Positions 23,005 through 51,653 of a stretch of 64,000 bases of DNA are shown one piece after another. Under the pieces are notes generated by a model that saw nothing but the letters and a program-made list of their open reading frames with translations, was not told the origin of the DNA and did no database searches. Position 1 is the stretch's first letter; each line of letters begins with the position of its first letter. The stretch is from Chlorobiaceae bacterium (lineage in GTDB: Bacteria; Bacteroidota; Chlorobiia; Chlorobiales; Chlorobiaceae), in contig JAAXXL010000004.1 in NCBI GenBank assembly GCA_013334485.1, positions 1 to 64,000 on the forward strand, written 5' to 3'. A program made the position numbers and the translations under genes.

Positions 23005-23539
23005 TGACCGGAACGCCGGAGGTTGTCTGAGATCGATGACGGCGGCCGATCTTGAAAGCGTTTTAAAATTACGCAATCATGCCGAAATTCGGCGATACAT
23101 GTTTACGCAACATGAAATTTCAAAAGAAGAGCATCGGTCGTGGTTTGATCGCGCATCGCAGAATACGGGTGTGGAGCTGCTGGTTTTTGAACTGGATAAC
23201 AACTGTTGCGGGTTTGTCCAATTCAAGGCAACACCCTTTCATGGAGTTGTTGACTGGGGCTTTTACGCAGCCCCTGATTCACCAAAAGGAACGGGTAGAA
23301 AACTTGGAGCTGCAGCATTAAAACACGCATTCGAAAAAGAGTATTTGTACAAGATTTGCGGTCAGGCACTCCATTGGAATAAGCCCTCGATTGAATTCCA
23401 TAAATCACTCGGTTTTTTTCAGGAAGGAGTTCTGCGTGATCAGTATTTTGACGGAACGGATTTTCACGATTTGATCTGCTTTGGAATGCTTAAGCGTGAT
23501 TGGGTTGCCAAAGAATCGCAGTCAGAAATAAAAAAATGA
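22997..23539 (+). CDS. pseH: PseH-like GNAT N-acetyltransferase
   Basis: GNAT fold (LRSMTAADLESVLKLRNHAEIRRYMFTQHEISKEEHRSWFDR); between pseG and pseI. Confidence 0.83.
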   Translation: MIDDRNAGGCLRSMTAADLESVLKLRNHAEIRRYMFTQHEISKEEHRSWFDRASQNTGVELLVFELDNNCCGFVQFKATPFHGVVDWGFYAAPDSPKGTGRKLGAAALKHAFEKEYLYKICGQALHWNKPSIEFHKSLGFFQEGVLRDQYFDGTDFHDLICFGMLKRDWVAKESQSEIKK

Positions 23540-24582
23540 TTACAATCGGTAACTGCAAAATTGGAGCGGGCCAGGTGCCCTTCATTATTGCTGAAATGTC
23601 CGGCAATCACAACCAGTCGTTGAAACGAGCACTGGAAATTGTTGATGCCGTCGCCAAAAGCGGTGCACATGCTTTGAAAATACAGACTTACACGCCCGAT
23701 ACCATGACGATTGATCTTGATGAGCGTGAGTTTCACATCAGCGATCCAAACAGTTTATGGGAAGGTAAATCACTTTACAACCTTTATGGTGAGGCCTATA
23801 CACCCTGGGAGTGGCACAAACCGATATTTGATCGTGCCAGTGAACTTGGTCTCATTGCGTTCAGTACACCTTTTGATGATACGTCAGTTGATTTCCTCGA
23901 AAGTCTGGATGTTCCCTGTTACAAAATCGCATCCTTTGAGAACACCGATTTTCCATTGATTCGTCGAGTTGCTGCTACAGGCAAGCCCATGATCATCTCT
24001 ACAGGTATGGCAACCGTTGCTGAACTGGATGAAAGCGTGCGCGCAGCACGCAATGCAGGCTGCAGGGATTTGATTTTACTTAAATGCACCAGCACCTATC
24101 CCGCAACAGCAGAGAATTCAAACTTGTTAACGATTCCACATCTTCGAGATCTGTTTGAGTGTGAAGTGGGGTTGTCTGATCATACACTGGGCGTTGGTGT
24201 TTCTGTCGCTGGCATAGCGCTTGGCGCTACAGTTATTGAAAAACATTTCACCCTCAATCGTGCCGATGGCGGGGTGGACAGCACCTTTTCCATGGAACCT
24301 GCCGAGATGGCTCAATTGATCTCGGAGACCGGACGTGCCGGGCAAGCCCTGGGTAAAATAAGTTATGGTGCCAGTGATGCCGAGAAAAAGTCCCTTCTCT
24401 TCAGACGCTCGCTCTATGTGGTGCAGGACCTGAAGACAGGCGATGTGTTGACTAAAGAGAATGTTCGTGCGATTCGACCTGGGCTGGGATTGCCAACAAA
24501 GTATTTAGAGGTGGTGTTGGGCAAAAGTGTGCAGTATGATGTCAGGCGTGGCACAGCGTTAAGTTGGGAACTTTTCCGGTAA
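23536..24582 (+). CDS. pseI: PseI-like pseudaminic acid synthase (NeuB family)
   Basis: FIIAEMSGNHNQSLKRALEIVDAVAKSGAHALKIQTYTPDTMTID; SAF domain at the C-terminus. Confidence 0.92.
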   Translation: MITIGNCKIGAGQVPFIIAEMSGNHNQSLKRALEIVDAVAKSGAHALKIQTYTPDTMTIDLDEREFHISDPNSLWEGKSLYNLYGEAYTPWEWHKPIFDRASELGLIAFSTPFDDTSVDFLESLDVPCYKIASFENTDFPLIRRVAATGKPMIISTGMATVAELDESVRAARNAGCRDLILLKCTSTYPATAENSNLLTIPHLRDLFECEVGLSDHTLGVGVSVAGIALGATVIEKHFTLNRADGGVDSTFSMEPAEMAQLISETGRAGQALGKISYGASDAEKKSLLFRRSLYVVQDLKTGDVLTKENVRAIRPGLGLPTKYLEVVLGKSVQYDVRRGTALSWELFR

Positions 24583-27486: not shown

Positions 27487-28397
27487 TTGCAGTAGTTTCC
27501 CATGATGCTGGTGGTGCTGAAATTTTAAGTAGCTATGTACGAGCGCAGGATCTTGATGTTCTGTATGTGTTAGATGGACCCGCACGCACTATTTTCGAGC
27601 GTAAGTTAGGCAAAATAGAAATTATCGCTCTTGACGAAGCTATACGTAAATCAACATCAATTATTTGCAGTACAAGTTGGGCTTCAGATATTGAGTTTAA
27701 CGCCATCAAGTTAGCGCGTACTGCCAATAAACGTTCAATAGCATTTCTTGATCATTGGGTAAATTACCGGGACCGATTTGTCAGATCAGCCGAAACTGTT
27801 TTGCCTGATGAAATTTGGGTGGGTGATGTTTTTGCAAAAAACATAGCTCAGGAGGTTTTTCCGGACATCGCGGTTACCTTGGTGGATAATCCATATTTCA
27901 AGGATGTACGGAAAGAACTTCTTTCGAATCAATCGTGTCGTCCATCTTCCCAAGACGCCATTTCGATCCTTTATGTTTGTGAGCCAATCAGCAGGCATGC
28001 CTTGCTACGACATGGTGATGCGCGTTTCTGGGGTTATGTTGAGGAGGATGCGCTCCGTTATTTTTTGTCAAACACATCAGTATTAGGTAAGCCGATTGAA
28101 CGAATCCTTATTCGAGCACATCCTTCCGAGAACGCAGATAAATATAGTTGGGTTCAAAATGAGTTTAATCTGCCGATTGAATTTGGTGCAATACGTACTC
28201 TATCTGAGGAAATTGCGGGCTGTGATGTAATTGTCGGATGTGAGTCAATGGCATTGGTAGTTGGGTTACTTGCCGGTAAAAAAGTTATAAGTTGTATTCC
28301 TCCTCACGGCAGAGCCTGTGTTTTGCCTCACACTGAGATCATAAAAATAAAAGATATTATGGAAAATAAACAGTTAATATATCAAAGCAATGAGTGA
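27483..28397 (+). CDS. Uncharacterised surface-polysaccharide protein (glycosyltransferase-like)
   Basis: IAVVSHDAGGAEILSSYV N-terminus; GCDVIVGCESMALVVGLLAGKKVIS resembles GT-B C-terminal patterns. Confidence 0.5.
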   Translation: MIAVVSHDAGGAEILSSYVRAQDLDVLYVLDGPARTIFERKLGKIEIIALDEAIRKSTSIICSTSWASDIEFNAIKLARTANKRSIAFLDHWVNYRDRFVRSAETVLPDEIWVGDVFAKNIAQEVFPDIAVTLVDNPYFKDVRKELLSNQSCRPSSQDAISILYVCEPISRHALLRHGDARFWGYVEEDALRYFLSNTSVLGKPIERILIRAHPSENADKYSWVQNEFNLPIEFGAIRTLSEEIAGCDVIVGCESMALVVGLLAGKKVISCIPPHGRACVLPHTEIIKIKDIMENKQLIYQSNE

Positions 28398-29610
28398 TAC
28401 TTCATCAGAACCAATCAAAGGTATTCAATACTGCATTCGATGCTGTGTACCAGAAACTCAGGAGGGTGTTCAGTTTGATGAAATGGGTATATGTACTGCA
28501 TGCCGATCGTCTGAAGAAAAAATGCACATCGACTGGACTGTACGTGAAAAGCAGTTAAGAAAAATTTTTGAAGAAGCTAAAGCCAGTTCCGGAAATAATT
28601 ACGATTGTGTATTGCCGATCTCTGGGGGTAAAGACAGTTTTTTTCAGGCGCATGTTTTAGTAAATGTCTATGGATTGAAACCGCTTGCCGTGACGTTTAA
28701 CCAAAATTGGGTTTCAGAGACTGGGTTTTATAATCTGCAACGCTGCCTGGAAGTTTTTAATTTGGATCATCTGCAATTCACACCATCAAGAGGTTTAGTC
28801 AATCGAGTGGCGAGGAAGTCGCTAGATGCGATCGGTGATGCATGTTGGCATTGTCACGCCGGGATTGGCGCATTTCCTTTACAAGTTGCAACTCGCTTTA
28901 AAATACCCTTGTTGATATGGGGAGAGTCAACTGCTGAGAGCTCCGGTAAGGCTGCATTTAGTTGTCCACAAAAATTTGACAGGGATTATTTTACAAAGGT
29001 TTCAGCCAAGCTTACAGCACAAGAGATGATTGATGATAAGCTTAGCGCAAAAGATCTTTACCCTTTTGAACTGCCAAGCTATAAAGAAATTGAGAATACT
29101 GGTGTTTGGGGAATTCATTTAGGTGATTACATGTTCTGGGATGACGAACGCCAGACCGAATGGATTCGTGATGTATATGGCTGGAGAGAAACTGAGATGG
29201 AAGGTGCTTTTAAGGGCTATAAAAGCGCTGAATGTATCATGTCTGGTGTGCATGATTTTACTTGTTATCAAAAAAGAGGATTCGGCAGATCAACATGGCA
29301 AGCATCTGTGGATGTTCGAAATGGATTGCTTACCAGGAAAGAGGGATTTGAGTTGATTTGTAAACACGATCAAGAGCGGCCTGATGCACTGGATTACTAT
29401 TTGAAAATTACAGGAATGAGCGAAGCCGAGTTTTATGATATTATGAGAGAAAAAAAACTCAAGGTGTTAAAGGATATTGATTTGCCATACCACCCCAAAG
29501 CGAAGCCGAATGCGGAGCAATTATTTCCATTCGTAGAACAAATAATCCAAAAACATTTAAACCAGCCTGACCCAAGAATCACGAGAGATCAGAAGGAGGA
29601 TATATTATGA
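28390..29610 (+). CDS. WbpG/WbuX-type N-acetyl sugar amidotransferase (paralog 1)
   Basis: YCIRCCVPETQEGVQFDEMGICTACRS zinc-like motif; PP-loop-like LPISGGKDSFFQA. Confidence 0.85.
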   Translation: MSDTSSEPIKGIQYCIRCCVPETQEGVQFDEMGICTACRSSEEKMHIDWTVREKQLRKIFEEAKASSGNNYDCVLPISGGKDSFFQAHVLVNVYGLKPLAVTFNQNWVSETGFYNLQRCLEVFNLDHLQFTPSRGLVNRVARKSLDAIGDACWHCHAGIGAFPLQVATRFKIPLLIWGESTAESSGKAAFSCPQKFDRDYFTKVSAKLTAQEMIDDKLSAKDLYPFELPSYKEIENTGVWGIHLGDYMFWDDERQTEWIRDVYGWRETEMEGAFKGYKSAECIMSGVHDFTCYQKRGFGRSTWQASVDVRNGLLTRKEGFELICKHDQERPDALDYYLKITGMSEAEFYDIMREKKLKVLKDIDLPYHPKAKPNAEQLFPFVEQIIQKHLNQPDPRITRDQKEDIL

Positions 29611-31001: not shown

Positions 31002-32840
31002 ATGAAAATTTCCAACAAGAATATCCGAGCAACTGTGTTTCAGGAATTCTGGAGCGATGAGTATAAGGACTCCTTGTATTTATGGCAGGGTTCTAAACAT
31101 CACAGTACACTTGCTGATATTGACACGAATCCAGTACCTACGTGTAAGGATTATTTCACGACTCAGAAAGAAATAGAGGCCGGTCATGAATTCTGTAAAA
31201 AATTTTACTACAAAATTCTTCCGGAATTAACCGTAAGTTTGAATAATGCACACAACCTTGACCTGCCTGTTTCTTTTTGGCAAGTTGTTTTTGGTTATTG
31301 GTTGTATCGTCATATTTCGATTGTCTATGATAAATATGTTTATCTTAGCGCATTAGATATTGATAGGACGAGTCTCAAATTATTAAGCAAGGAGGATTTC
31401 TACATCCCTCAAAATCATGTTGATTATATATTTTGTTTTGCAAGTGATTTTGGAGTGCAGCAGTTAGTTAGTCAGTATTATTACCTTTTCAAGACCAAAG
31501 AATTTACGGAGGTACACAGGACATTTACTCATGGTGATACCTCTTCGAATAACGACACGCTTTTATCACGAGTAAAGCGAAATTATTCGATGTTGAAATT
31601 TGAACCCGAAATTGCGCTTTTAGGTGCGTATTTTAGTGCAAATACCGTAAATATATTAGGAGGAAAATCTTCAGGCAGAATAAACAGCATCGTTTTGCCG
31701 ATTACAGAAAAAAAAACAATTGATGTCGATTTTGTGAAAAGGCGATGTATATCTAATAGCGTCGTCGAAAATAGCTTCGACAGCTATTTCATGCAATCTT
31801 TATATTATTGTTTGCCTAAAGATATTTTGGAAGGATTTTTTGAATATTACAGCGTTTATCAAAAGGATATCAAATCAAGAAAATTCACACATATTGTCTC
31901 TGAGGATTGGATAAGCAATATTTCAAATGCAATATATATTGCATTGGCAAAGGAAAATAAGGTGCGATTTATTTCTCACGAACATGGTGCTGGTACATGT
32001 TACTATAAGAATTTTTTGCATTTTATAGACTACGGATCTGCAGATATATATCTTTCTGTTGGATGGAAAGAAAATGGAAGAAACTTTATTCCTGGTGGGT
32101 TCACTTGTCGGGATATTATTCCATACAAGCAGGATTCTAATAAAGAGACTATTCTATTTATAACACGCACCAAATTTATTTATTGGGAGGAATTTAACGA
32201 ATACAATGCATCAAATTCTACTTTTATTAAGGAGGTAGCAGTCGTTGCGGATTTTATTAGATTATTTCCTCAAGTATTGAAAGAAAAACTATTGTTCAGA
32301 CCAAGGCCCGCAAAATTGTTTTGGGATGTAGAACATTTGCTGGAACTTGAGAAGCATAATGTGAAAGTAGACAGGGGGGATTTTACGGAAAGTATTTCCA
32401 AGTCAAGGATTGTCGTGACTGATCACATGAGTACCGGATTTGCGGAAATATTGTTGATGAAAGTTCCGTTTATTCTTGTTTATGATATCAGTTTTTTGCC
32501 GTTGACAAACGAACTGAGACAAATATTTGATGATTTGATCAGTTGTGGGGTGGTTCATCTTTCAGCATCGTCAGCAGTGTCACACTTATCATCAATTTAC
32601 GATGATGTAGAAGGATGGTGGCAAAGCGAATCTGTTTGCCGGTCTGTCGGAAAACTGATTGATGTGTCGCTTGCACCACCAAACAGAACCACAGATTACC
32701 TTCTCTCTTTGCTATCGGGAGATAGCAAAAGCCAACCTACTTTACAGTACCGCTTCCTGACGTGGTCGGAAGATTGTGCGAAGAGAGCTTACAGGTTAAT
32801 GAAGAAATCAAAATCATTAATCTCTTCAAGAGCAAAATAA
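31002..32840 (+). CDS. LIC12162-like putative surface-glycan transferase
   Basis: VSEDWISNISNAIYIALAKENKVRFISHEHGAGTCYYKN; family recalled by pattern only. Confidence 0.55.
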   Translation: MKISNKNIRATVFQEFWSDEYKDSLYLWQGSKHHSTLADIDTNPVPTCKDYFTTQKEIEAGHEFCKKFYYKILPELTVSLNNAHNLDLPVSFWQVVFGYWLYRHISIVYDKYVYLSALDIDRTSLKLLSKEDFYIPQNHVDYIFCFASDFGVQQLVSQYYYLFKTKEFTEVHRTFTHGDTSSNNDTLLSRVKRNYSMLKFEPEIALLGAYFSANTVNILGGKSSGRINSIVLPITEKKTIDVDFVKRRCISNSVVENSFDSYFMQSLYYCLPKDILEGFFEYYSVYQKDIKSRKFTHIVSEDWISNISNAIYIALAKENKVRFISHEHGAGTCYYKNFLHFIDYGSADIYLSVGWKENGRNFIPGGFTCRDIIPYKQDSNKETILFITRTKFIYWEEFNEYNASNSTFIKEVAVVADFIRLFPQVLKEKLLFRPRPAKLFWDVEHLLELEKHNVKVDRGDFTESISKSRIVVTDHMSTGFAEILLMKVPFILVYDISFLPLTNELRQIFDDLISCGVVHLSASSAVSHLSSIYDDVEGWWQSESVCRSVGKLIDVSLAPPNRTTDYLLSLLSGDSKSQPTLQYRFLTWSEDCAKRAYRLMKKSKSLISSRAK

Positions 32841-32845
32841 AAATA

Positions 32846-35224
32846 ATGATACAAAGACTATCAAAAGCTCAAACGCTCAATCAGCTTAAAACTAAGGTTA
32901 ACTTCTTCCAGGTTCCTGAACTTCAGATAATTGATGCATCATTATACACCTCTACCCCGGATGACGTTGTCAAAGAGATAATAAATACTTTTTCTGGTCG
33001 CTCTCTGGCCATAAGATCATCTGCTGCAAACGAAGATGGTGTTAAAAATGCACGAGCCGGAGAGTTCGATTCAGTGCTGAACGTTTCGTCAACGGACGCT
33101 TACGCTATAGGTGATGCAATCAATACCGTGATTGCCAGCTACGAAAATAAAGGCGTGCGTACAAGAGGGGATGAGGTTATTGTTCAGGAGATGGTACTGA
33201 ACACCAGCATGAGCGGTGTTGTCTTTACGCATGACCTGAACACCGGTGCGCCATATTATGTTATCAACTATGACGATGTATCCGGTTTGACCAATACGGT
33301 TACATCCGGTGGCGGTGAATACTCGAATCGAACACTCTATATTCATCGCGGAGCTACAGAAGCCCTTCGTTCAGAGCGTTTTCAACGATTGATACAGGCG
33401 ATTCAGGAGTTGGAGCAAGTCATGGGCAGCCAGTTTCTCGATGTTGAATTTGCTCTTGCCGGGGACTTGACTCCATATCTTCTACAGGTACGGGCTATTA
33501 CCACGCAGCCTAACTGGAATCGGGCTGTTGCCAGGCGCATCGACGCTGCACTGCAAGGTATACAGGCTTTTGTGAGCGCACGAATGAAACCTATGGCGGG
33601 CGTATACGGTAGATCCACAGTGCTTGGCCAGATGCCTGACTGGAATCCCGCAGAGATGATCGGACGCGCCCCTCGGGCACTGGCCTTTTCGCTTTACCAG
33701 ACCTTAATTACCGATCATGCATGGCGCGTGGCAAGAGAGATGATGGGGTATGCAGTTCCTGTCGGTCAGCCGTTGATGGTATCTCTCTCCGGTCAGCCAT
33801 TTATAGATACTCGGTTGAGTTTTCACTCTTTTTTGCCTGCCGATCTTTCACCTGAGATAAGTGAGAAGCTGGTTGATGCATGGGTGAACAGGCTGCAGGC
33901 CTATCCGGAACTGCATGACAAAGTGGAATTTGATGTTGCCATTACAACTTACAGTTTCGACATCGACGAAAAAATACAGTCACTGATCGGCACTTCACTT
34001 ACGCAGTCGGAGCAGTCGGTATTCAAGGAAGTTTTGCGCCAGCAGACGCGTACATTACTCGAGAACAATAATCAGGGCGGTATCAGCAATGCGTTGTCCA
34101 GGGTGAATGAGTTGAGCAGGAAGCAGGCTCAATCGCGACAATTGTCCGAAGATCAGGATATTACCTCCCTGTTTGAAATGGTTGATGATTGTATCCGTCT
34201 GGGAACCGTACCCTTTTCTGTTTTGGCTCGACATGGCTTCATTGCCCGGACGATACTCCTGTCGTTGCATAAGCGAGGTATTTTGACAATGGAAGATGTT
34301 CAGCTTATTCAGTCCGGAATTCGAACAGTTGCCAGTACACTCGTAAATGATATGCGCCGTTTACAGCTTGGCGAGATCTCTCGTTCGGAGTTTATGGCAG
34401 AGTATGGCCATTTGCGCCCCGGTACCTATGATATCCTGTCACCTCGATATGATCAGATGTCCGATCTTGGAATGAATGATACGCAAGTTCGCCCCAAGCA
34501 GGAGCATAACGAGTTTATATTGAGCTTCAGGCAGCGGCGTGAAATAGATCGGCTTCTTCAGTCGGAAGGGTTTCATGAACTCGACGCAGAAAAATTGCTC
34601 GATTATCTTAAAGCTGCAACGGTAGGTCGTGAATATGGGAAGTTTGTCTTTACCCGATCTGTCAGTGATATACTCGAACTTATTGCAGGTTTTGGCGAGA
34701 AGCATGGTTTGAGCCGGGATGAAATGTCGTATGTCTCGATTGACAATCTTCTTGATGTTGTTACGAAGAGTAGTGAAGGCTCTATCGAAGAGCGGCTTCG
34801 CAGGATTGCTGAAGATGAATGCGAGAAGCACGCATTAAGTGCGGCGATACGTTTGCCCCAGGTGTTGTTTGATGAGGCGGGTGTGCATATTGTACCTTTT
34901 CAGGTCAGTCACCCGAATTTTATTACGCACAAGAAAATTACAGCGGCTTGTGTCTGCCTGCTTGCAGGGCAAACCGCGCCGGCACTGACAGGAAAAATTG
35001 TACTGATTGAAAATGCAGATCCGGGATTTGACTGGATTTTTGCCCAGCAAATTGGCGCTCTTATTACCAAATACGGTGGCGCAAATTCACACATGGCGAT
35101 ACGTTGTGCGGAATTTGGCATTCCTGCTGCAATAGGTTGTGGTGAGCAGCGCTTTGAGGTATTCATAAACGCAAATCAGATTCTCCTGGATTGCGCTGCA
35201 GGTTTGATTAATCCCTTGCATTAA
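32846..35224 (+). CDS. PPDK/PEP-synthase-like kinase; candidate L-glutamine kinase (Cj1418-like)
   Basis: ATP-binding RSSAANEDGVKNARAGEFDSVLNV; C-terminal swivelling-His domain GGANSHMAIRCAEFGIPAAIGCG; no obvious PEP TIM barrel. ATG at 32846 preferred over ORF-track start 32762. Confidence 0.85.
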   Translation: MIQRLSKAQTLNQLKTKVNFFQVPELQIIDASLYTSTPDDVVKEIINTFSGRSLAIRSSAANEDGVKNARAGEFDSVLNVSSTDAYAIGDAINTVIASYENKGVRTRGDEVIVQEMVLNTSMSGVVFTHDLNTGAPYYVINYDDVSGLTNTVTSGGGEYSNRTLYIHRGATEALRSERFQRLIQAIQELEQVMGSQFLDVEFALAGDLTPYLLQVRAITTQPNWNRAVARRIDAALQGIQAFVSARMKPMAGVYGRSTVLGQMPDWNPAEMIGRAPRALAFSLYQTLITDHAWRVAREMMGYAVPVGQPLMVSLSGQPFIDTRLSFHSFLPADLSPEISEKLVDAWVNRLQAYPELHDKVEFDVAITTYSFDIDEKIQSLIGTSLTQSEQSVFKEVLRQQTRTLLENNNQGGISNALSRVNELSRKQAQSRQLSEDQDITSLFEMVDDCIRLGTVPFSVLARHGFIARTILLSLHKRGILTMEDVQLIQSGIRTVASTLVNDMRRLQLGEISRSEFMAEYGHLRPGTYDILSPRYDQMSDLGMNDTQVRPKQEHNEFILSFRQRREIDRLLQSEGFHELDAEKLLDYLKAATVGREYGKFVFTRSVSDILELIAGFGEKHGLSRDEMSYVSIDNLLDVVTKSSEGSIEERLRRIAEDECEKHALSAAIRLPQVLFDEAGVHIVPFQVSHPNFITHKKITAACVCLLAGQTAPALTGKIVLIENADPGFDWIFAQQIGALITKYGGANSHMAIRCAEFGIPAAIGCGEQRFEVFINANQILLDCAAGLINPLH

Positions 35225-35236
35225 AAGGAGACAGTT

Positions 35237-35764
35237 ATGGTTGTGTGGTTAATTGGTTTATCAGGTACAGGAAAAACAACTTTAGCCAATCAAGTTGTCG
35301 AGCGGATACGGCAATCGAATGGCAAAGTGGTTCTCCTTGACGGTGATTTGATACGAAACCTTTTTGGCAATGATGTTGATCATACCATCGAAGGCAGGAG
35401 GCGAAATGCGGAACGTCTTTCGGTTCTCTCAAAGTTTCTCGCTGATCAGGGAATTCATGTTGTGGCGGCTGTTCTTTCGATATTTCCGGAGTGGCGTCGC
35501 TGGAACAGGGAACATATTCCCGATTACTCCGAAGTGTATATAAAGGCATCAATGGAGACATTGTTGAGACGCGATATCAAGAATTTGTATGCCAGAGCAG
35601 CAAAAGGTGAAATTGTTAACGTTGTTGGCGTGGACATACCCTTTCCGGAGCCTGAAAATCCGGAGCTGGTAATTGAAAATGATGTTGACCGGCTTGATTA
35701 TCAGGAATTTACAGACAGAATCATGAGCCTTGCAGTAGTGCGAGAGGCGTTTGGGTGCGCATGA
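35237..35764 (+). CDS. Adenylylsulfate-kinase-like protein; candidate CDP-amidate kinase (Cj1415-like)
   Basis: P-loop WLIGLSGTGKTT, LLDGDLIRNLFGNDVDHTIEGRRRNAER. Confidence 0.85.
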   Translation: MVVWLIGLSGTGKTTLANQVVERIRQSNGKVVLLDGDLIRNLFGNDVDHTIEGRRRNAERLSVLSKFLADQGIHVVAAVLSIFPEWRRWNREHIPDYSEVYIKASMETLLRRDIKNLYARAAKGEIVNVVGVDIPFPEPENPELVIENDVDRLDYQEFTDRIMSLAVVREAFGCA

Positions 35765-36981
35765 ATGCCATTGTATTAGCTTTTCTGGTTCTGCTGCTTG
35801 TTGAAGCAGGGCTGTTTTTAATAGTCAATCTGCAGCGTCGAAGCTTTCCGTGGCTCATTACAAAGCGTGACGAGTTCCCGGTCCTTGATTCCCGGGCACT
35901 GCAAAAATTTATTGATTACAGTTTTGATCCGCAACTTGGATGGGTTCGTAAACCTGACTCCAGCGGGAGTGAAAATGGTCAAAAGGGGCCGATTACCTTT
36001 CATATTGATTCATCAGGTTCTCGAACCACTTCATTTGAAAAATTCCCATCTGTTATTGCTGCTTTTGGTGATTCCTACGCTTTTTGCCGACAGGTTGAGG
36101 ATGACGAGACCTGGGAGGCCCAACTCTCAAGGCAGAACGGTTTTGGTGTGCTGAATTACGGGGTCGGCAACTATGGTATAGACCAGGCACTGTTGCGTTA
36201 TGAAGGTATGATTTTACCGGAGACGGTAAAGGTTGTTGTGATGGGTTTTGTTCCGGAAACTATTTGCAGGGTACAGTCTTACTGGAAGCACTATCTTGAA
36301 TTCGGAAATACCTTTGCGTTTAAACCACGATTTGTACTCGATTCAACAGGAGGGCTCACCTTGTTGGAAAATCTCATTCGGAGCGCAGAAGATTTTGCGG
36401 TTTTTCGTGAAAAACTGCCTGCAATACGTGCGGCTGATGGTTTTTACAAAACAAAATTTCGTTCGCAGCAGTTTCGATTTCCCTATATCTTCAGTTTGAT
36501 GCGAAATCCATTAAAGCAAAGTATGCTGATTTCAGCTGTTGCTGTTCGCTCTGTTTGGCGGGCTTTGGGTATTTCAAACCGGAGCATAGAAAATCTGCCA
36601 TTCACGTTAGTAATGAAAAATAACTTGCGTGATGCTCATCAGCTCTACAGCGACAGCAGATCGACAGAACTATTGAGTGCGATATTGCGGCGATTCAAGA
36701 CAGAAGCATTGCGGCGAGGCCATACTCCATTAGTAGTTGTAATGCCACAATTGCTTGACATAAAGCTGAATAAAAACAGGGTATTTCCTTACCAAGGGTA
36801 CTTCCGTGAGCTTGACAAGGAGCTGCCCGTACTTGATCTTACCGAGCGATTCATCAATATCGAATTTGAAAAACTTTACATCAACGATCAATATGGCGGT
36901 CATCTGTCAGTTGATGGAAATTGTCTGGTTGCAGATGAAATTTCGACCTGGCTCAAATTAAATGTTACATCAACACCATAA
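35755..36981 (+). CDS. SGNH/GDSL-hydrolase-like protein with N-terminal membrane anchor
   Basis: N-terminal hydrophobic segment; IAAFGDSYAFCRQVEDDETW; NYGVGNYGIDQ; C-terminal GGHLSVDGN. Confidence 0.65.
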   Translation: MRMNAIVLAFLVLLLVEAGLFLIVNLQRRSFPWLITKRDEFPVLDSRALQKFIDYSFDPQLGWVRKPDSSGSENGQKGPITFHIDSSGSRTTSFEKFPSVIAAFGDSYAFCRQVEDDETWEAQLSRQNGFGVLNYGVGNYGIDQALLRYEGMILPETVKVVVMGFVPETICRVQSYWKHYLEFGNTFAFKPRFVLDSTGGLTLLENLIRSAEDFAVFREKLPAIRAADGFYKTKFRSQQFRFPYIFSLMRNPLKQSMLISAVAVRSVWRALGISNRSIENLPFTLVMKNNLRDAHQLYSDSRSTELLSAILRRFKTEALRRGHTPLVVVMPQLLDIKLNKNRVFPYQGYFRELDKELPVLDLTERFINIEFEKLYINDQYGGHLSVDGNCLVADEISTWLKLNVTSTP

Positions 36982-36998
36982 AAAAGGGATCTGGATTA

Positions 36999-37790
36999 AT
37001 GAGAATTACTTATAGAAGAGCAAACAACAAAGACTACTGGACAAAGCGCTGGGACGATATTCCAGCCGATGCTCCGATGGAAAACCTTGGTGTATATCCA
37101 CTGAAATACGCCCAGATGACGGTAAAAAACAAAGAGGGAAAGATTCTTGAAGCAGGTTGTGGCGCAGGTCGGGTTTTACGTTATTATCATGACAGGGGTT
37201 ATGATATACTCGGTTTCGATTTTATAGATGTTGCGATCAAAAAACTCAAGGAGATTGATCCAACACTACAGGCAGAGGTAGGGGATATAACCAGACTGAG
37301 ATTTGCAGACCACTCCTTCAGGTATATTCTGGCTTTTGGACTTTATCATAATCTTGAACACGGTCTGGACAAGGCTATTGGCGAAACGCATCGGGTACTG
37401 GAAAAAGGCGGTTTGGTGTGTGCCTCATTCCGTGCTGACAATGTTCAGACCAAGCTTACTGATTGGCTGACTGAAAGAAAAGCAAAGAAAAACGGAAACG
37501 AGAACAAAACTCGGGCTTTTCACAAGATGAATCTGACCCGCAGTGAATATGAGCAATTATTCATTCGTGCAGGGTTTGCCATTGAATTTATCGGTCCGGT
37601 TGAGAATATGCCCATCCTCTATAAATTTGCTGTTTTCCGCTCTTCCGAACATAAGCAATTCAATGAAAACAAGGCGCGTGCTGAAGGTTATCGTTTATCG
37701 TGGTTTGGTCAACTGCTGCAAAATATGTTAATGAGGTTCTTTCCTGATCAGTTTTGCAATATCTATGTTCTCATTGCAAAAAAATTATGA
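36999..37790 (+). CDS. SAM-dependent methyltransferase (candidate phosphoramidate O-methyltransferase, Cj1419/Cj1420-like)
   Basis: ILEAGCGAGRVLRYYHDRGYDILGFDF motif I; position in the cassette. Confidence 0.82.
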   Translation: MRITYRRANNKDYWTKRWDDIPADAPMENLGVYPLKYAQMTVKNKEGKILEAGCGAGRVLRYYHDRGYDILGFDFIDVAIKKLKEIDPTLQAEVGDITRLRFADHSFRYILAFGLYHNLEHGLDKAIGETHRVLEKGGLVCASFRADNVQTKLTDWLTERKAKKNGNENKTRAFHKMNLTRSEYEQLFIRAGFAIEFIGPVENMPILYKFAVFRSSEHKQFNENKARAEGYRLSWFGQLLQNMLMRFFPDQFCNIYVLIAKKL

Positions 37791-38425
37791 ACATTCGCTC
37801 TGAAATGATTGTAGGTATAACACAACGCATAGACTTCATTTCAGGACGAAATGAACTCAGGGATGCCCTGGATCAAAGGCTGGCTTCATGGCTCATACAA
37901 GCAGGCTACCTGCCTGTTCCCATACCAAATACCTTGTTTGATAAAGATAATGCTGCCGATTTATCCCTTGAAAACTGGTTATCAGCAGTAAAGCCCGGTG
38001 CATTACTGCTTTCCGGTGGTAATGATATCGGTGAATATCCGTCAAGAGATGATACCGAGCGCTATTTACTATCCTGGGCAGTATCCAATGGAGTTCCGGT
38101 TTTAGGTATTTGCAGGGGTTTACAGATGCTGGCTGTGTGGGCTGGGGTTACATTAGAAAAGAAAGAGGGGCATGCAGGAACCCGTCATCCCCTCAGAGCG
38201 GCTGAAAAAAATGAAGAGTGGCCAGGTGAAGTAAACAGTTACCATAACTGGATAGTATCTGTATGCCCGGATGAATTTAAGGTGACAGCACGTTCAGAAG
38301 ATGGAGCCATAGAGGCAATCAGGCACTCTGAATTATCACTTGAAGGATGGATGTGGCATCCTGAACGGGACAGACCATTTTCTCAACTTGACATCAAAAG
38401 GATAAGGTGTTTATTTGGTCAATAA
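37787..38425 (+). CDS. Class I glutamine amidotransferase / C26-peptidase-like; candidate gamma-glutamyl-CDP-amidate hydrolase (Cj1417-like)
   Basis: IVGITQRIDFISGRNE, LLSGGNDIGEY, nucleophile GICRGLQML, His/Glu in WMWHPERD. Confidence 0.85.
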   Translation: MNIRSEMIVGITQRIDFISGRNELRDALDQRLASWLIQAGYLPVPIPNTLFDKDNAADLSLENWLSAVKPGALLLSGGNDIGEYPSRDDTERYLLSWAVSNGVPVLGICRGLQMLAVWAGVTLEKKEGHAGTRHPLRAAEKNEEWPGEVNSYHNWIVSVCPDEFKVTARSEDGAIEAIRHSELSLEGWMWHPERDRPFSQLDIKRIRCLFGQ

Positions 38426-39209
38426 ACATTTGACATCTATCGCTGTTGATGCAGCCAAAAAAGCAGGTCAAGCTATTCTGACTTATTACAGGAAAGAGCT
38501 CCCTGTTGAGCAGAAAAATGACGGATCACCGTTAACCTTGGCTGATCAGGCATCCCACAGCATAATCTCAGTATTACTCGCAGAGACAGGGATACCTGTT
38601 GTCTCTGAGGAGGGTGTTGAGCTTCACATGAGCGCTGAGAGATATTGGTTAGTTGATCCTCTGGATGGTACAAAGGATTTTTTGGCGGCAAATGATGAAT
38701 TCACTGTCAATATAGCACTGATTGAAAACGAACGGGTCATTATTGGTGTGTTATACGCGCCTGCTCTTGATGAGTTGTATGTTGGCATACCAGGGGACTC
38801 TTTTTTGTCAGTAAAACTGCAGGGTATCGCGGCGGTATATCCATCAACCCCTAAAAGCACTGAACCACGGATGGCAATCAGTCGCTTTCATGACCACTCT
38901 GATGCAGCACTATTTGTCGCTGCAAATCAGGTTAAGGAGTGCATACCGGTTGGTTCGGCACTGAAATTCGGAAGACTCTCTATTGGTGCAATAGATGTGT
39001 ATCCGCGTCTTGTAGGAACTTCTGAATGGGATACGGCAGCCGGTCAGGCTATTCTTGAGGCCAGTGGCGGCCATGTTCTTGATCTGGATAAAAAGGAGCC
39101 AATGCTCTATGGCAAAGCAAACAGGCGCAACGGGCGTTTTATAGCTTTTCGTTGGCCATATAAGGCAAGTGACTTTGACTTAACAATTTTAAAAAGAGAG
39201 AACTCATGA
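38415..39209 (+). CDS. CysQ/inositol-monophosphatase family 3'-phosphatase
   Basis: GSPLTLADQASH, VVSEEG, YWLVDPLDGTKDFLAANDEFTVNIALIE, SEWDTAAGQAIL. Confidence 0.9.
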   Translation: MVNKHLTSIAVDAAKKAGQAILTYYRKELPVEQKNDGSPLTLADQASHSIISVLLAETGIPVVSEEGVELHMSAERYWLVDPLDGTKDFLAANDEFTVNIALIENERVIIGVLYAPALDELYVGIPGDSFLSVKLQGIAAVYPSTPKSTEPRMAISRFHDHSDAALFVAANQVKECIPVGSALKFGRLSIGAIDVYPRLVGTSEWDTAAGQAILEASGGHVLDLDKKEPMLYGKANRRNGRFIAFRWPYKASDFDLTILKRENS

Positions 39210-39973
39210 AGGCAATTATTCTTGCGGCCGGTGAAGGTACGCGTTTACGTCCTTATACGCTTGATCGTCCCAAGTGCCTGGTGGAAGTGGATGGACGCAG
39301 CTTGCTGGATCGCCAGTTGGATGTGCTGGCAACTGAAGCGGTTAATCCTGTCATTTTAATTGGCGGATATCGCGCGGAAATGCTGGAACGTCCCGGTGTA
39401 ACAATTCGATTAAACCCTGGTTATGCAGTCACAAACATGTTGTGGACATTGTTTTGTGCTGAGGATGATCTTGAGGGTGATGTTCTTCTTTGTTATGGTG
39501 ATATTGTTTATTCAAGTGAAATACTTCAGGCAATTCTGAAATCAAAAGCCGACATTGCTGTAACAATTGATTTGGAGTGGGAGTCATATTGGCGCGCACG
39601 AAACGAAGATCCTCTGGATGATGCCGAAACACTCAAACTTGCAGCCGATGGCAGAATTCTTGAGATTGGTCAGAAGCCCAAATCACTTGATGAAATTGAA
39701 GGCCAGTATATGGGTCTGATGAAGTTTTCCCCCAGGGGTTTGGAACTGCTGAAAAAAACCTTTCATGATGCAAAATCTTTTGGATCCCTGCGCGGCAAAC
39801 CGCTTGAAAAAGCCTATATGACCGATATGCTGCAGGCAATGATTGACCTGAATTACAGACTTGACGCAGTCTTGGTGCATGGTGGATGGGTTGAGGTCGA
39901 TACGGTGAGTGACCTGAATTCAGATGTTACAAAAAGCAGATTGGATAGTATATCAGAATCAAGGATCGCTTAA
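39206..39973 (+). CDS. NTP-transferase; candidate CTP:phosphoglutamine cytidylyltransferase (Cj1416-like)
   Basis: MKAIILAAGEGTRLRPYTLDRPKCLVEVDGRSLLDRQ. Confidence 0.87.
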   Translation: MKAIILAAGEGTRLRPYTLDRPKCLVEVDGRSLLDRQLDVLATEAVNPVILIGGYRAEMLERPGVTIRLNPGYAVTNMLWTLFCAEDDLEGDVLLCYGDIVYSSEILQAILKSKADIAVTIDLEWESYWRARNEDPLDDAETLKLAADGRILEIGQKPKSLDEIEGQYMGLMKFSPRGLELLKKTFHDAKSFGSLRGKPLEKAYMTDMLQAMIDLNYRLDAVLVHGGWVEVDTVSDLNSDVTKSRLDSISESRIA

Positions 39974-39977
39974 TATT

Positions 39978-40802
39978 ATGTACTGGATCAGCATAAAAGA
40001 TCTCAGGGCGAAATGTCAAAAAACAAATTATGGATATGATGTCTATCCGTTATTATTCAGGTTTATCAGGGTACTCTCTATTTATTCTACCTGGTTGCTT
40101 ATACAGACACGGTGTAATCCGAATACGATAACAATTCTTGGCGTATTATGTGGTGTGCTAAGTGGGATAATGTTTTTTGCGGGCTTTGTGAACAGTGCCC
40201 TGATATTGGTAATACTGGCTGTAATAGCTGATTTTTCTGATGGTGAAGTGAGCCGGTTTCATGGCACAACCTCCAAAGAGGGAACATATCTGGATACCAT
40301 TCATCATTTTGTGGTACAGCCTTTTTTTATAGCTGGAATTGTGCTGTGGAGTTTTGAAAAGAACAACAGTCACCTTTTTCTTGCTGCGGGGATGGTTAGT
40401 GTAATAAACTCAATCATTCTGTCACTTGCAGTATCGTCGGCGGTTGATAACGCTTTGTTAAAGCATTTGTTAAGGTACATAAAGAGTAACAGGGTGCGTC
40501 ACATACCTACTGAAATCGAAGAAACACCGGTGAAACCAATGCAAAAGGCAGGTTTTTACCGGGCTATTCCCGGAACAGTGGCTCGAATGCTTGATTTCCC
40601 GTATGTAATAGTAATAATGGGGGTTGGCGTGATTTTGGATAGGTACTGCAGCGTTTTATTCGGCATTAACGACAGTGTGATCTTGTACATGATATATCTT
40701 TATGCGTTGCTGAGCTCGGGCTTGGTAACTCTTTTTGTGTGGAATGTGGTTCACAGCAGACACATTGAAAAAAGATTTAATGAAACAATAAAAATGGTAT
40801 AG
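39978..40802 (+). CDS. CDP-alcohol phosphatidyltransferase family membrane protein, altered active-site motif
   Basis: RCNPNTITILGVLCGVLSGIMFF; ADFSDGEVSRFHGTTSKEGTYLDTIHH. ATG at 39978 preferred over the ORF-track start. Confidence 0.82.
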   Translation: MYWISIKDLRAKCQKTNYGYDVYPLLFRFIRVLSIYSTWLLIQTRCNPNTITILGVLCGVLSGIMFFAGFVNSALILVILAVIADFSDGEVSRFHGTTSKEGTYLDTIHHFVVQPFFIAGIVLWSFEKNNSHLFLAAGMVSVINSIILSLAVSSAVDNALLKHLLRYIKSNRVRHIPTEIEETPVKPMQKAGFYRAIPGTVARMLDFPYVIVIMGVGVILDRYCSVLFGINDSVILYMIYLYALLSSGLVTLFVWNVVHSRHIEKRFNETIKMV

Positions 40803-49359: not shown

Positions 49360-50514
49360 GTGAACAAAACTGATCAGTTGATTATTGGTATTGACGCTTC
49401 GCGCAATCGATCTGGAGGTGCTGTAGCTCATTTGATAGGAATTCTCTCAGAAGGGGATCCGGTAATCAGGGGCATTCATCAGGTTCACGTATGGGCTTAC
49501 AAGACCTTGCTTGATGCGGTTCCCGACAGGCCCTGGTTGATCAAGCATAATCCGGCAGAGCTTGAACAGTCGTTGATTAAACAACTTCTTTGGCAACGAT
49601 TCGACTTGCCTGTTGAGGCAAAACGTGCTTCTTGCCAGATAGTCTTGAATACGGATGCAGGTACTATTTCCACCCTTCGACCTGCCGTTACGATGAGTCG
49701 GGACATGCTCTCCTATGAACCAGGCGAGATTACGCGATACGGATTCAGCCTTGCCCGCTTACGTTTGATTCTTTTGCGTTATATGCAAAACCGGTCTCTT
49801 CGCAAGACTGACGGGGTGATATTCCTTACACGCTATGCGGCCGATATTATACAGCAATCCTGTGGTACCTTGCCTTCAATTACCTATATTCCGCATGGCG
49901 TTGGCCCTGCTTTCAAGCAGGCTCGACAGGTAAATAGATGGCCGGAGGAAGGTGAACGTCCTATTCTGTGTACCTATGTTTCAAATGCAGAAATGTACAA
50001 ACATCAATGGGTGGTAGTAAAAGCGATCTCATTGTTAAGAGAGCGGGGTTATAATTTGACACTAAGCTTGGTTGGTGGGGGCAAAGGCCGTGCGCAGCAA
50101 TTGTTACAGGATACGATTGCTGCGCTGGATCCGGATAAAGAGTTTGTAGAACAACTTGCTTTTTTACCGCAAAAAGAGTTGCCTTCCCATCTGTCGAGAG
50201 CCGACCTGTTTGTATTTGCGTCAAGTTGTGAAAATATGCCAAACACCCTGGTTGAGGCTATGGCTGTAGGGCTTCCAATTGCCTGTTCCAATCGTGGACC
50301 GATGCCGGAAGTGCTTGCAGATGGAGGCGTTTACTTTAATCCTGAAGATGCCGGATCTATTGCTGCGGCAGTAGAACAGATAATTACATCACCATCACTG
50401 CGACTGACTATCGCTCAGCGCGCACAAACTCTTTCCCAACAATATAACTGGAAGCGTTGCGCTGATGAAACGTTTACATTCCTCGCCGAAACTTACCAAA
50501 AATACTCACGATGA
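49360..50514 (+). CDS. Family 1 glycosyltransferase (GTG start)
   Basis: SLVGGGKGRAQQLLQD; SRADLFVFASSCENMPNTLVEAMAVGLPIACSNRGPMPEVL. Confidence 0.9.
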   Translation: MNKTDQLIIGIDASRNRSGGAVAHLIGILSEGDPVIRGIHQVHVWAYKTLLDAVPDRPWLIKHNPAELEQSLIKQLLWQRFDLPVEAKRASCQIVLNTDAGTISTLRPAVTMSRDMLSYEPGEITRYGFSLARLRLILLRYMQNRSLRKTDGVIFLTRYAADIIQQSCGTLPSITYIPHGVGPAFKQARQVNRWPEEGERPILCTYVSNAEMYKHQWVVVKAISLLRERGYNLTLSLVGGGKGRAQQLLQDTIAALDPDKEFVEQLAFLPQKELPSHLSRADLFVFASSCENMPNTLVEAMAVGLPIACSNRGPMPEVLADGGVYFNPEDAGSIAAAVEQIITSPSLRLTIAQRAQTLSQQYNWKRCADETFTFLAETYQKYSR

Positions 50515-51653
50515 TCGCCCGCTCGTATCAAATATGCTCCAACTGTGTTATGGACACCAGCGATCCCAACATTGTTTTCGATGAACAGGGTGTTTGTGAT
50601 TACTGCAATAACTTTAAAAACGAAATTCAGCCTAACTGGCATACCGATGCTCAGGGAGAGAAAGCACTTGCGCTTCTGTCCGGGAAAATAAAAGCAGAGG
50701 GAAAGGGAAAGGATTTTGATTGTATTATCGGTTTAAGCGGTGGATTGGACAGCTCTTATGCTGCTTTTATTGCGAAAGAAAAGATGGGCCTTAGACCTTT
50801 GCTTTTTCATGTAGATGCTGGGTGGAATACTGATCAGGCAGTAGGAAATATTGAAAAGCTGGTTGATGGCCTTGGACTTGATCTGTACACTGAAGTGATC
50901 AATTGGGAGGAGATGAAGGATTTGCAGCTTGCCTTTTTGCGGTCGCAAATTCCGGATCAGGATCTTGTGCAGGATGCAGCATTCTTTTCTTCTCTGTACA
51001 AGTTTGCACACAAGCAGCATATAAAATATATCATTACCGGTTCGAATTTTTCAACTGAGTGTTGCCGTGAACCTGAGGAGTGGGGGGGCTATCTGGGTAT
51101 TGATAAATTACTGTTCAGTGATATCCATACCCGTTTCGGAAAGCGGGCATTAAAGACGTTTCCTCTTGTTGATATTTTTGTTTACAAGGTGTTCTATCAG
51201 AAGATTCTTGGTATGCAGGTTGTTATGCCGCTGAATCTGGTGCCTTATGTCAAGAAGGATGCAGAGGCTGAACTGGAGCGTCGGTTTGGCTGGCAGAAAT
51301 TTCAGCATAAACACCATGAATCACGTTTTACGCGTTTTTATGAAGACTTTTGGCTACCTCAAAAATTTGGTTATCACAAGCGACGGGCACACTTTTCAAG
51401 CCTCATCATGACAGATCAAATGATAAGGGCTCAGGCTATGGACCGTCTTTCCCGTCCGGAAATGGATGAGCAATTTCTGACACAGGAATTTGAGTATCTG
51501 GCCAATAAGCTTGGATTGAGTGTAGCTGAACTACAGGTGATTTTTCAGGGTGAGAACAAGACCTATCGGGATTACAGGAATAAACGCTGGGCTATCGGAA
51601 TGGGTACCAATCTTTTGCGTATGCTTGGTTTAGAAAAAAGGTTTTTTCGATGA
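50511..51653 (+). CDS. WbpG/WbuX-type N-acetyl sugar amidotransferase (paralog 2)
   Basis: ICSNCVMDTSDPNIVFDEQGVCDYCNN; IIGLSGGLDSSYAAFIAKEKMGLRPL; followed by HisH2/HisF2. Confidence 0.92.
   Translation: MIARSYQICSNCVMDTSDPNIVFDEQGVCDYCNNFKNEIQPNWHTDAQGEKALALLSGKIKAEGKGKDFDCIIGLSGGLDSSYAAFIAKEKMGLRPLLFHVDAGWNTDQAVGNIEKLVDGLGLDLYTEVINWEEMKDLQLAFLRSQIPDQDLVQDAAFFSSLYKFAHKQHIKYIITGSNFSTECCREPEEWGGYLGIDKLLFSDIHTRFGKRALKTFPLVDIFVYKVFYQKILGMQVVMPLNLVPYVKKDAEAELERRFGWQKFQHKHHESRFTRFYEDFWLPQKFGYHKRRAHFSSLIMTDQMIRAQAMDRLSRPEMDEQFLTQEFEYLANKLGLSVAELQVIFQGENKTYRDYRNKRWAIGMGTNLLRMLGLEKRFFR

Follow-up and report, generated by a model that had tools for sequence, protein, structure and literature searches.

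A probable CDP-phosphoramidate cassette of horizontal origin in a surface-polysaccharide locus of a green sulfur bacterium

The window analysed here, a stretch of 64,000 nucleotides from a green sulfur bacterium, carries within its surface-polysaccharide locus what is most likely a complete and horizontally acquired cassette for the formation of CDP-linked phosphoramidate, a reading to which we assign a probability of about 0.8. The gene set very probably makes an activated phosphorus–nitrogen group that is used for the decoration of surface sugars. To our knowledge, the biochemistry of such sugar phosphoramidates is known only from Campylobacter. A first-pass annotation of the window had already proposed a cassette of this type, and the proposal is supported by the family to which the kinase belongs, by the family and clade of the hydrolase, and by the joint inheritance of the genes across many phyla, in which the gene order is often that of Campylobacter. 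The likeness to Cj1415–Cj1418 was judged from NCBIfam models, gene order and co-occurrence rather than from direct alignment.

The five genes on which the earlier proposal was built (those for the kinase, the APS-kinase-like protein, the methyltransferase, the hydrolase and the NTP transferase) are all present on one strand (Table 1). They had been described as consecutive, which holds for their presence and shared direction but not for strict adjacency, since an SGNH-like and a CysQ-like gene are interposed. The operon thus reads kinase, APS-kinase-like protein, SGNH-fold protein, methyltransferase, hydrolase, CysQ-like protein, cytidylyltransferase and, closing the cassette, CDP-alcohol phosphotransferase, with a LIC12162-family gene that stops 5 bp upstream of the kinase start. 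The gene junctions overlap or almost do, in an operon-like manner; the hydrolase start is joined to the preceding stop by a 4-base ATGA overlap. The placement in a surface-glycan locus is also confirmed, with pseudaminic acid genes, N-acetyl sugar amidotransferases and a family 2 glycosyltransferase flanking the cassette on its two sides. Because PseC, PseG and PseI are encoded in the same stretch, the acceptor may be a glycan that contains pseudaminic acid.

Table 1 Features of the predicted phosphoramidate cassette (positions in the window)
Predicted product	Position	Strand	Basis and remarks
LIC12162-family (TIGR04331) protein, GT-B fold; candidate transferase	31002..32840	+	TIGR04331, 251 bits (cut-off 225)
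Predicted L-glutamine kinase (Cj1418-type)	32846..35224	+	NF004508, PF01326, PF00391
Predicted CDP-amidate 3'-kinase (Cj1415-type), APS-kinase fold	35237..35764	+	NF004041
Membrane-anchored SGNH-fold protein; accessory enzyme	35755..36981	+	AlphaFold fold comparison
SAM-dependent methyltransferase	36999..37790	+	PF13649/PF08241
Predicted gamma-glutamyl-CDP-amidate hydrolase (Cj1417-type)	37787..38425	+	Best family NF045546; start 37787 or 37805
CysQ-like 3'(2'),5'-bisphosphate nucleotidase	38415..39209	+	TIGR01331, 212 bits
Predicted CTP:phosphoglutamine cytidylyltransferase (Cj1416-type)	39206..39973	+	PF12804/PF00483
CDP-alcohol phosphotransferase family membrane protein; candidate phosphoramidate transferase	39978..40802	+	PF01066

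In the kinase tree the nearest relatives are betaproteobacterial, and it was considered whether the contig could be a betaproteobacterial contaminant. This was rejected because its UDP-sugar dehydrogenase-type gene and its long terminal gene are 89% and 95% identical, respectively, to genes of same-genus genomes, in which the two are also found close together. A virus-borne system was rejected as well, the kinase being found only twice in viral sequences, once in IMG/VR as a distant relative and once in a phage record of 9.5 kb.

An important source of evidence is the distribution of the cassette. Relatives of the kinase number more than 570 in public genomes of many phyla, with Methyloversatilis, Denitromonas, Roseivirga and Alteromonas as examples of cultivated carriers, and gene content was counted in the 51 loci, taken from the best 80 of these relatives, that have at least 5 kb of flanking sequence on both sides. 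The hydrolase was found in 48 of these loci, the cytidylyltransferase in 49 and the APS-kinase-like gene in 45, while all three accompany the kinase in 44, which excludes a chance grouping. The commonest order among the relatives, kept in 28 loci, is kinase, hydrolase, cytidylyltransferase and APS-kinase-like gene, and in Campylobacter transcription likewise runs from Cj1418 to Cj1415, with cj1415 downstream of cj1416 (PMC3907429). It had also been predicted that each gene by itself would be misnamed, and for the relatives RefSeq indeed uses the names 'PEP-utilizing enzyme', 'gamma-glutamyl-gamma-aminobutyrate hydrolase family protein', 'phosphocholine cytidylyltransferase family protein' and 'adenylyl-sulfate kinase'.

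The hydrolase has its top NCBIfam match with the gamma-glutamyl-CDP-amidate hydrolase model NF045546, at 94.5 bits against 51 for the next family, a score below the curated cut-off of 250, as is every match to this model among the 395 genomes of the phylum that were searched. Each of the 48 cassette homologues likewise has a match to NF045546, and in a tree they form a single clade separate from PuuD-like proteins (support 100/99). A puuD-type affiliation, raised earlier as a point to be checked, and with it an identity as PuuD gamma-glutamyl-GABA hydrolase, is rejected on the basis of this separation and of a score of 41 bits with NF008471, for which the cut-off is 266. For the cytidylyltransferase the assignment is less specific. 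Its closest solved structure is the CTP:phosphocholine cytidylyltransferase LicC (1jyk, E 4e-14), and its NCBIfam matches include no Cj1416-specific model. The proposed likeness to Cj1416 therefore stands as far as the gene context goes, which points to phosphoglutamine as the substrate, whereas a separation from LicC-type enzymes by sequence was not obtained.

Several alternative explanations for these genes should be weighed. The kinase combines a PPDK_N nucleotide-binding domain with a C-terminal swivelling phosphohistidine domain, and since these domains (PF01326 and PF00391) are common to PEP synthases and dikinase-type enzymes, it might be a PEP synthase, a dikinase or an antibiotic phosphotransferase in an accidental gene grouping. 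We regard this as practically negligible. Over the whole family length the protein scores 850 bits with NF004508 (cut-off 501), the family to which Cj1418 presumably belongs, as compared to 51.9 bits with the PEP synthase model TIGR01418 (cut-off 739.75) and 42.5 bits with the rifamycin phosphotransferase (Rph) model NF041857 (cut-off 999), and it thus groups with neither of the two families against which the original proposal was to be checked. Co-occurrence with the hydrolase is moreover invariant: the six kinase-positive genomes among the 395 are exactly the six highest NF045546 scorers (84–115 bits, followed by 62), and each of them carries the two genes side by side. Family scores and co-occurrence together refute an identity as PEP synthase or Rph. 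The sequence motifs quoted in the first-pass annotation were found, and the swivelling-domain histidine of GGANSHMAIR shows no variation among six aligned kinases. The side-by-side occurrence of CysC and CysQ relatives suggests another possibility, namely that these two proteins supply PAPS and recycle PAP for a glycan sulfotransferase, the remaining genes being a separate decoration system of the CDP-choline or CDP-amino-acid type. The LicC-like nature of the cytidylyltransferase, the sulfotransferase-family genes beside several cassettes (8 of 107 flanking genes) and the sulfate-activation genes elsewhere in the host would fit such an arrangement. It is nevertheless very improbable, since no sulfotransferase was recognised by Pfam and NCBIfam in ten scanned genes of the cassette and its immediate surroundings, the APS-kinase-like gene is co-inherited with kinase and hydrolase in 45 of the 51 loci, and a member of the glutamine kinase family would be left with no role. 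The APS-kinase-like protein itself scores 173.7 bits with NF004041 (cut-off 127) and 127.8 bits with the true APS kinase model TIGR00455, below its cut-off of 138.7, and the APS-binding motif of CysC (S109-P110-H111-R112, SPHR) reads S-I-F-P, so that an identity as adenylyl-sulfate kinase CysC is rejected. The earlier argument that the sulfur metabolism of the host speaks against an assimilatory role of the CysC- and CysQ-like genes was correct in that the host is a green sulfur bacterium, but as stated it does not hold, as genes of the CysNC and PAPS reductase families are present elsewhere in the genome; the lost APS-binding motif is the better argument.

It is also conceivable that CDP-linked phosphoramidate is made for a secreted small molecule, a lipid or some other non-glycan use, and that the position in a glycan locus is due to chance. 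An Agrobacterium vitis plasmid carries the order kinase, hydrolase, cytidylyltransferase, LysE and CDP-alcohol phosphotransferase with glycan genes absent nearby, and a CDP-alcohol phosphotransferase also ends the cassette described here. However, the present cassette sits amid glycan genes, and many related cassettes have genes for sugar nucleotides, glycosyltransferases or polysaccharides next to them, which makes a non-glycan product unlikely.

The route proposed here, an inference from gene content, protein families, conservation and co-inheritance, would start with phosphorylation of L-glutamine by the predicted kinase, after which the NTP transferase would couple the phosphoglutamine to CMP, giving CDP-glutamine. 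The hydrolase would strip glutamate from this intermediate to leave CDP-amidate (H2N-P), and the APS-kinase-like enzyme would add a 3'-phosphate, yielding 3'-phospho-CDP-amidate as the donor. A transferase would then place H2N-P on a hydroxyl group of a sugar with release of 3'-phospho-CMP (pCp), a by-product that the CysQ-like nucleotidase probably recycles to CMP. This protein scores 212 bits with TIGR01331 (cut-off 228.8) and is 40% identical to E. coli CysQ. CysQ is present with only a few cassettes, one of which, from a distant member of the Bacteroidota, has it at the matching place (hydrolase, CysQ, one further gene, cytidylyltransferase); the two CysQ proteins are 55% identical, as compared to only 37% for the kinases. 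As to the methyltransferase, possible O-methylation of the transferred phosphoramidate or of a sugar can be envisaged. The gene is present as described before, but the analogy that was drawn with Cj1419/Cj1420 is weak, because these proteins have no assigned function (PMC11800397), and relatives of the methyltransferase occur in only 11 of the 51 loci.

Candidates for the transfer step in the operon are the CDP-alcohol phosphotransferase, the GT-B protein and the SGNH-fold protein, which together with the CysQ-like nucleotidase are new as compared to the first-pass annotation. The CDP-alcohol phosphotransferase matches PF01066 with 35.8 bits (cut-off 22). Genes of this kind were found in only 3 of 297 genomes of the phylum, and they lie at or near other cassettes (loci L008/L130, L010, L011, L012 and L036, and the Agrobacterium plasmid). 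The fourth motif aspartate is a histidine in this copy. The protein does not cluster with those of the other cassettes, and we therefore regard it as no more than a candidate. The AlphaFold model of the LIC12162-family protein resembles GT-B glycosyltransferases, MurG among them (best E 5e-6), and in view of its modest confidence (mean pLDDT 64.8) our claim is limited to the fold. The SGNH-fold protein gave no match in Pfam and NCBIfam scans; its AlphaFold model (mean pLDDT 87.6) has SGNH hydrolases, for instance TesA, among its top fold matches, and the GDS serine (Ser107) and His383 are invariant in nine cassette copies. It is possibly a transferase or a finishing enzyme. In the cassettes its gene never co-occurs with an alternative module consisting of a 'P2' protein and a formyltransferase-like enzyme. 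No family model for transferases of the Cj1421/Cj1422 type was found.

The closest known system is that of Campylobacter jejuni, where Cj1415–Cj1418 form 3'-phospho-CDP-phosphoramidate for modification of the capsule with O-methyl phosphoramidate; the four enzyme families predicted here correspond to these, and they too lie in one operon of a surface-polysaccharide locus. The differences are the gene order, the additional SGNH, CysQ and CDP-alcohol phosphotransferase genes, the lack of a recognised Cj1421/Cj1422 equivalent, and a host outside the Campylobacterota. Unmethylated phosphoramidate occurs in the lipopolysaccharide of Xanthomonas campestris and Shewanella sp. MR-4 (PMC3907429, PMC8042644), structures for which these papers name no genes, and this would be the expected group here if the methyltransferase leaves it alone. 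Earlier, a pathway of this kind was proposed for a non-Campylobacter system, the Borg extrachromosomal elements, where a cluster that includes a CTP:phosphoglutamine cytidylyltransferase was assigned from predicted structures to O-methyl phosphoramidate synthesis (PMC12660748, 2025); Borgs are archaeal mobile elements, and the portion of that account available to us mentions neither a glutamine kinase nor a bacteria-wide survey. The CD0240–CD0244 genes for the Type A glycan of Clostridioides difficile may work in a similar way, in that an amino-acid phosphate is proposed to be activated with CDP by a LicC-like cytidylyltransferase and then moved onto a sugar by a phosphotransferase that depends on CDP (PMC10714395), but the proposed donor is CDP-threonine and there is no glutamine kinase, hydrolase or P–N bond.

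The glutamine kinase was termed 'C. jejuni-specific' in a 2022 review (PMC9561416), whereas the kinase family is found in more than 570 places, with the partner genes almost always alongside in the best 80 loci. We tentatively suggest, at somewhat less than even odds, that surface-glycan phosphoramidate is a widespread bacterial trait, shared by organisms as different as Pelagibacter, Prochlorococcus, Desulfovibrio and green sulfur bacteria. A donor pathway of four enzymes would be conserved and combined with interchangeable end modules (SGNH-type, or a P2 protein, in some cases fused to the CDP-amidate kinase, together with the formyltransferase-like enzyme), with transferases drawn from families dependent on CDP or on 3'-phosphonucleotides (CDP-alcohol phosphotransferase, TagF-like or sulfotransferase-like), and with a CysQ-type nucleotidase for recycling of pCp, in which case 3'-phospho-CDP-amidate would be a P–N analogue of PAPS. 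The CysQ-like, SGNH, P2, formyltransferase-like and CDP-dependent transferase genes are candidates for explaining the transfer step and the reason for the 3'-phosphate on the donor. If this is true, P–N bonds on the cell surface would be common in biology rather than peculiar to a single genus. In Campylobacter the modification serves as a receptor for phages and has an influence on serum resistance, and a wider distribution would therefore bear on the relations between phages and their hosts in marine and soil environments.

The genes of the proposed phosphoramidate operon (see table) are tightly spaced, with start and stop codons overlapping or almost touching at the junctions, including ATGA-type overlaps at methyltransferase/hydrolase and CysQ/NTP transferase. 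The first-pass annotation had described five consecutive genes for phosphoramidate decoration of a surface glycan; its coordinates and motifs are correct, but the five genes are not consecutive, as SGNH-like and CysQ-like genes intervene. The presence of the cassette itself is confirmed, and family scores and co-inheritance support the phosphoramidate interpretation as to pathway family.

As that annotation had proposed, the kinase is distinct from PEP synthases and rifampicin phosphotransferases: it matches model NF004508 over its full length with 850 bits (cut-off 501), and identification as a PEP synthase (52 bits vs cut-off 740) or a rifamycin phosphotransferase (42 bits vs 999) is ruled out. 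The hydrolase best fits the Cj1417-type family rather than the PuuD type, its top NCBIfam model being gamma-glutamyl-CDP-amidate hydrolase (NF045546) with 94.5 bits, under the curated cut-off of 250 (runner-up family, 51). This model was matched by all 48 cassette hydrolases tested, more than any other family matches, and in a tree that includes E. coli PuuD and, from kinase-negative genomes, four PuuD-like proteins, a branch supported at 100/99 separates the cassette hydrolases from these five. For the NTP transferase, the closest PDB relative is LicC, and sequence alone cannot tell whether its substrate is phosphoglutamine or phosphocholine, both of which are known for this group (COG1213; PMC12275187). 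The APS-kinase-like protein passes the broad subfamily model (173.7 vs cut-off 127) and stays under the APS kinase equivalog cut-off (127.8 vs 138.7). Alignment with E. coli CysC shows that P-loop, DGD and catalytic segments are retained; S109-P110-H111-R112 of CysC is replaced by S-I-F-P in the window protein, and the CysC motif is not retained across the cassette family. Elsewhere in the same genome, a CysN-CysC fusion (L095, contig C21) has a degenerate-looking CysC part, which keeps the P-loop and lacks recognisable DGD and SPxR motifs.

The order of the pathway steps and the histidine intermediate are reportedly given in the Raushel papers. In the proposed pathway, the kinase would convert L-glutamine and ATP to glutamine N-phosphate, from which the cytidylyltransferase would form CDP-glutamine with CTP; removal of glutamate by the hydrolase would give CDP-amidate, to be phosphorylated with ATP by the APS-kinase-like enzyme to 3'-phospho-CDP-amidate. 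These four steps are established for Cj1415-Cj1418 (PMC11800397; Cj1418: PMC10971088), and from family membership and gene context we infer that they occur in the window organism. A transferase would then move H2N-P onto a glycan hydroxyl, the candidates in the window being the CDP-alcohol phosphotransferase, the GT-B LIC12162 protein and the SGNH protein. Further transferase candidates among the genes flanking cassettes (n = 107) belong to the families CDP-glycerol glycerophosphotransferase (10), sulfotransferase (8) and CDP-alcohol phosphotransferase (5). With a 3'-phosphonucleotide as donor, transfer would release 3'-phospho-CMP (pCp), the cytidine analogue of the CysQ substrate PAP, and we therefore propose that the CysQ-like protein recycles it to CMP. 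This protein is 40% identical to E. coli CysQ and 55% identical to the product of the gene at the matching position in a distant Bacteroidota cassette (hydrolase-CysQ-X-cytidylyltransferase), of which the kinase is merely 37% identical to that of the window. O-methylation would be optional at best, since methyltransferase relatives occur in just 11 of 51 cassette loci.

Coordinates of the operon, of other window features and of related loci
Feature	Location	Positions	Strand
Nine-gene operon: LIC12162-family protein, kinase, APS-kinase-like, SGNH-like, SAM methyltransferase, class I amidotransferase-like hydrolase, CysQ-like, NTP transferase, CDP-alcohol phosphotransferase	window	31002-40802	+
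PseC	window	17493-18662	
PseG	window	21910-23004	
PseI	window	23500-24582	
WbuX-type N-acetyl sugar amidotransferases (two)	window	28390-29610, 50511-51653	
B12-binding radical SAM protein, BchE/HpnJ-like	window	3530-5353	
P2 family	L014	12881-13612	
P2 family	L015	3093-3842	
P2 family, fused to APS-kinase-like enzyme	L022	6702-7784	
P2 family, fused to APS-kinase-like enzyme	L036	15223-16323	
P2 family	about 20 further loci		
Kinase, hydrolase, cytidylyltransferase, LysE-type exporter, CDP-alcohol phosphotransferase	L115, Agrobacterium vitis plasmid pRvVAT039a	6902-11991	

The SGNH-like protein has no Pfam match; its AlphaFold model (pLDDT 87.6) has the SGNH-fold neighbours TesA, PatB and CgnD, weak by E-value, and Ser107 and His383 are invariant in the cassette copies. 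A second, unnamed family of about 200-250 residues (provisionally P2), without match in Pfam or NCBIfam, occurs after the APS-kinase-like gene or as a fusion with it; a formyltransferase-like protein usually comes next, with a catalytic motif that, in the copies read, has His where Asn is usual. Strong SGNH copies occur in 8 and P2 in 24 of 51 loci, never together (p = 0.0035, merely a guide because the loci share ancestry), so that SGNH and P2 plus formyltransferase-like protein look like alternative end modules.

The window covers bases 1-64000 of a 70-kb contig in a 2.6-Mb assembly that encodes the green-sulfur-bacterial FMO protein (PF02327, 749 bits). The far end of the contig is 89-95% identical to same-genus genomes, with matching arrangement, and the contig is a genuine member of the host genus. 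The kinase was found in 1 of 65 genomes of this genus and is sister to those of Propionivibrio and a Nitrosomonadales bacterium (99% SH-aLRT; about 80% identity); apart from lacking CysQ, the Propionivibrio locus has the window order from kinase to CDP-alcohol phosphotransferase. The simplest interpretation is that the operon was acquired horizontally. The host glycan probably contains pseudaminic acid, as judged from PseC, PseG and PseI (556, 333 and 498 bits). The B12-binding radical SAM protein, with relatives in about eight cassette loci, may modify the same glycans.

Some plasmid-borne relatives are arranged differently. The tightly packed L115 genes lie between transposases, away from glycan genes and near an asparaginase, a TauD-type dioxygenase and a tRNA-ligase-like gene, and look like a phosphoramidate small-molecule cluster. 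Kinase relatives on the Cupriavidus taiwanensis symbiotic plasmid (L118) and a Microvirga lotononidis plasmid (L120) have neighbourhoods without hydrolase or cytidylyltransferase; the former is accompanied by an annotated thiamine-diphosphate enzyme and histidinol-phosphate-type aminotransferase, apparently as in the latter, perhaps reflecting another N-phosphorylation pathway. In five loci (L128, L129, L130, L114, L119), the kinase has an N-terminal extension of about 220-280 residues resembling the NTP transferase of the same cassette, as a fused second copy that is probably degenerate. One of these, L114 on Vibrio alfacsensis plasmid pYa108, has a CDP-glycerol glycerophosphotransferase-family gene after its kinase, hydrolase and cytidylyltransferase genes, and cysD and cysN lie adjacent in divergent orientation.

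One scan of GTDB genomes gave at least 577 kinase relatives, of which the best 80 were extracted with up to 10 kb on either side. Of these loci, 51 had 5 kb or more of sequence on each flank, and by profile searches 48 of them carry the hydrolase, 49 the cytidylyltransferase, 45 the APS-kinase-like gene and 44 the complete trio. The hosts belong to Pseudomonadota, Bacteroidota, Omnitrophota, Acidobacteriota, Planctomycetota, Cyanobacteriota (Prochlorococcus), Desulfovibrio and others. The same-strand order kinase-hydrolase-cytidylyltransferase-APS-kinase-like, present in 28 loci, is also the order of transcription in Campylobacter, where cj1416 precedes cj1415 (PMC3907429). A search of 395 genomes from the phylum of the window, run with each model, served as an independent control: six carried the kinase, and the six top NF045546 scores (84-115 bits; next score 62) came from the same six genomes, with the hydrolase adjoining the kinase; the probability of picking the identical six by chance is about 2e-13.

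MeOPN genes have been surveyed within Campylobacter (PMC3907429), and a 2022 review termed the glutamine kinase C. jejuni-specific (PMC9561416). Xanthomonas and Shewanella LPS are known to carry unmethylated phosphoramidate (PMC3907429, PMC8042644), and a 2025 study attributes O-methyl phosphoramidate synthesis to a Borg gene cluster on the basis of predicted structures (PMC12660748). No survey of the cassette genes across bacteria was found in a literature search that covered few subscription papers. The distribution of the cassette is much wider than the available literature states.
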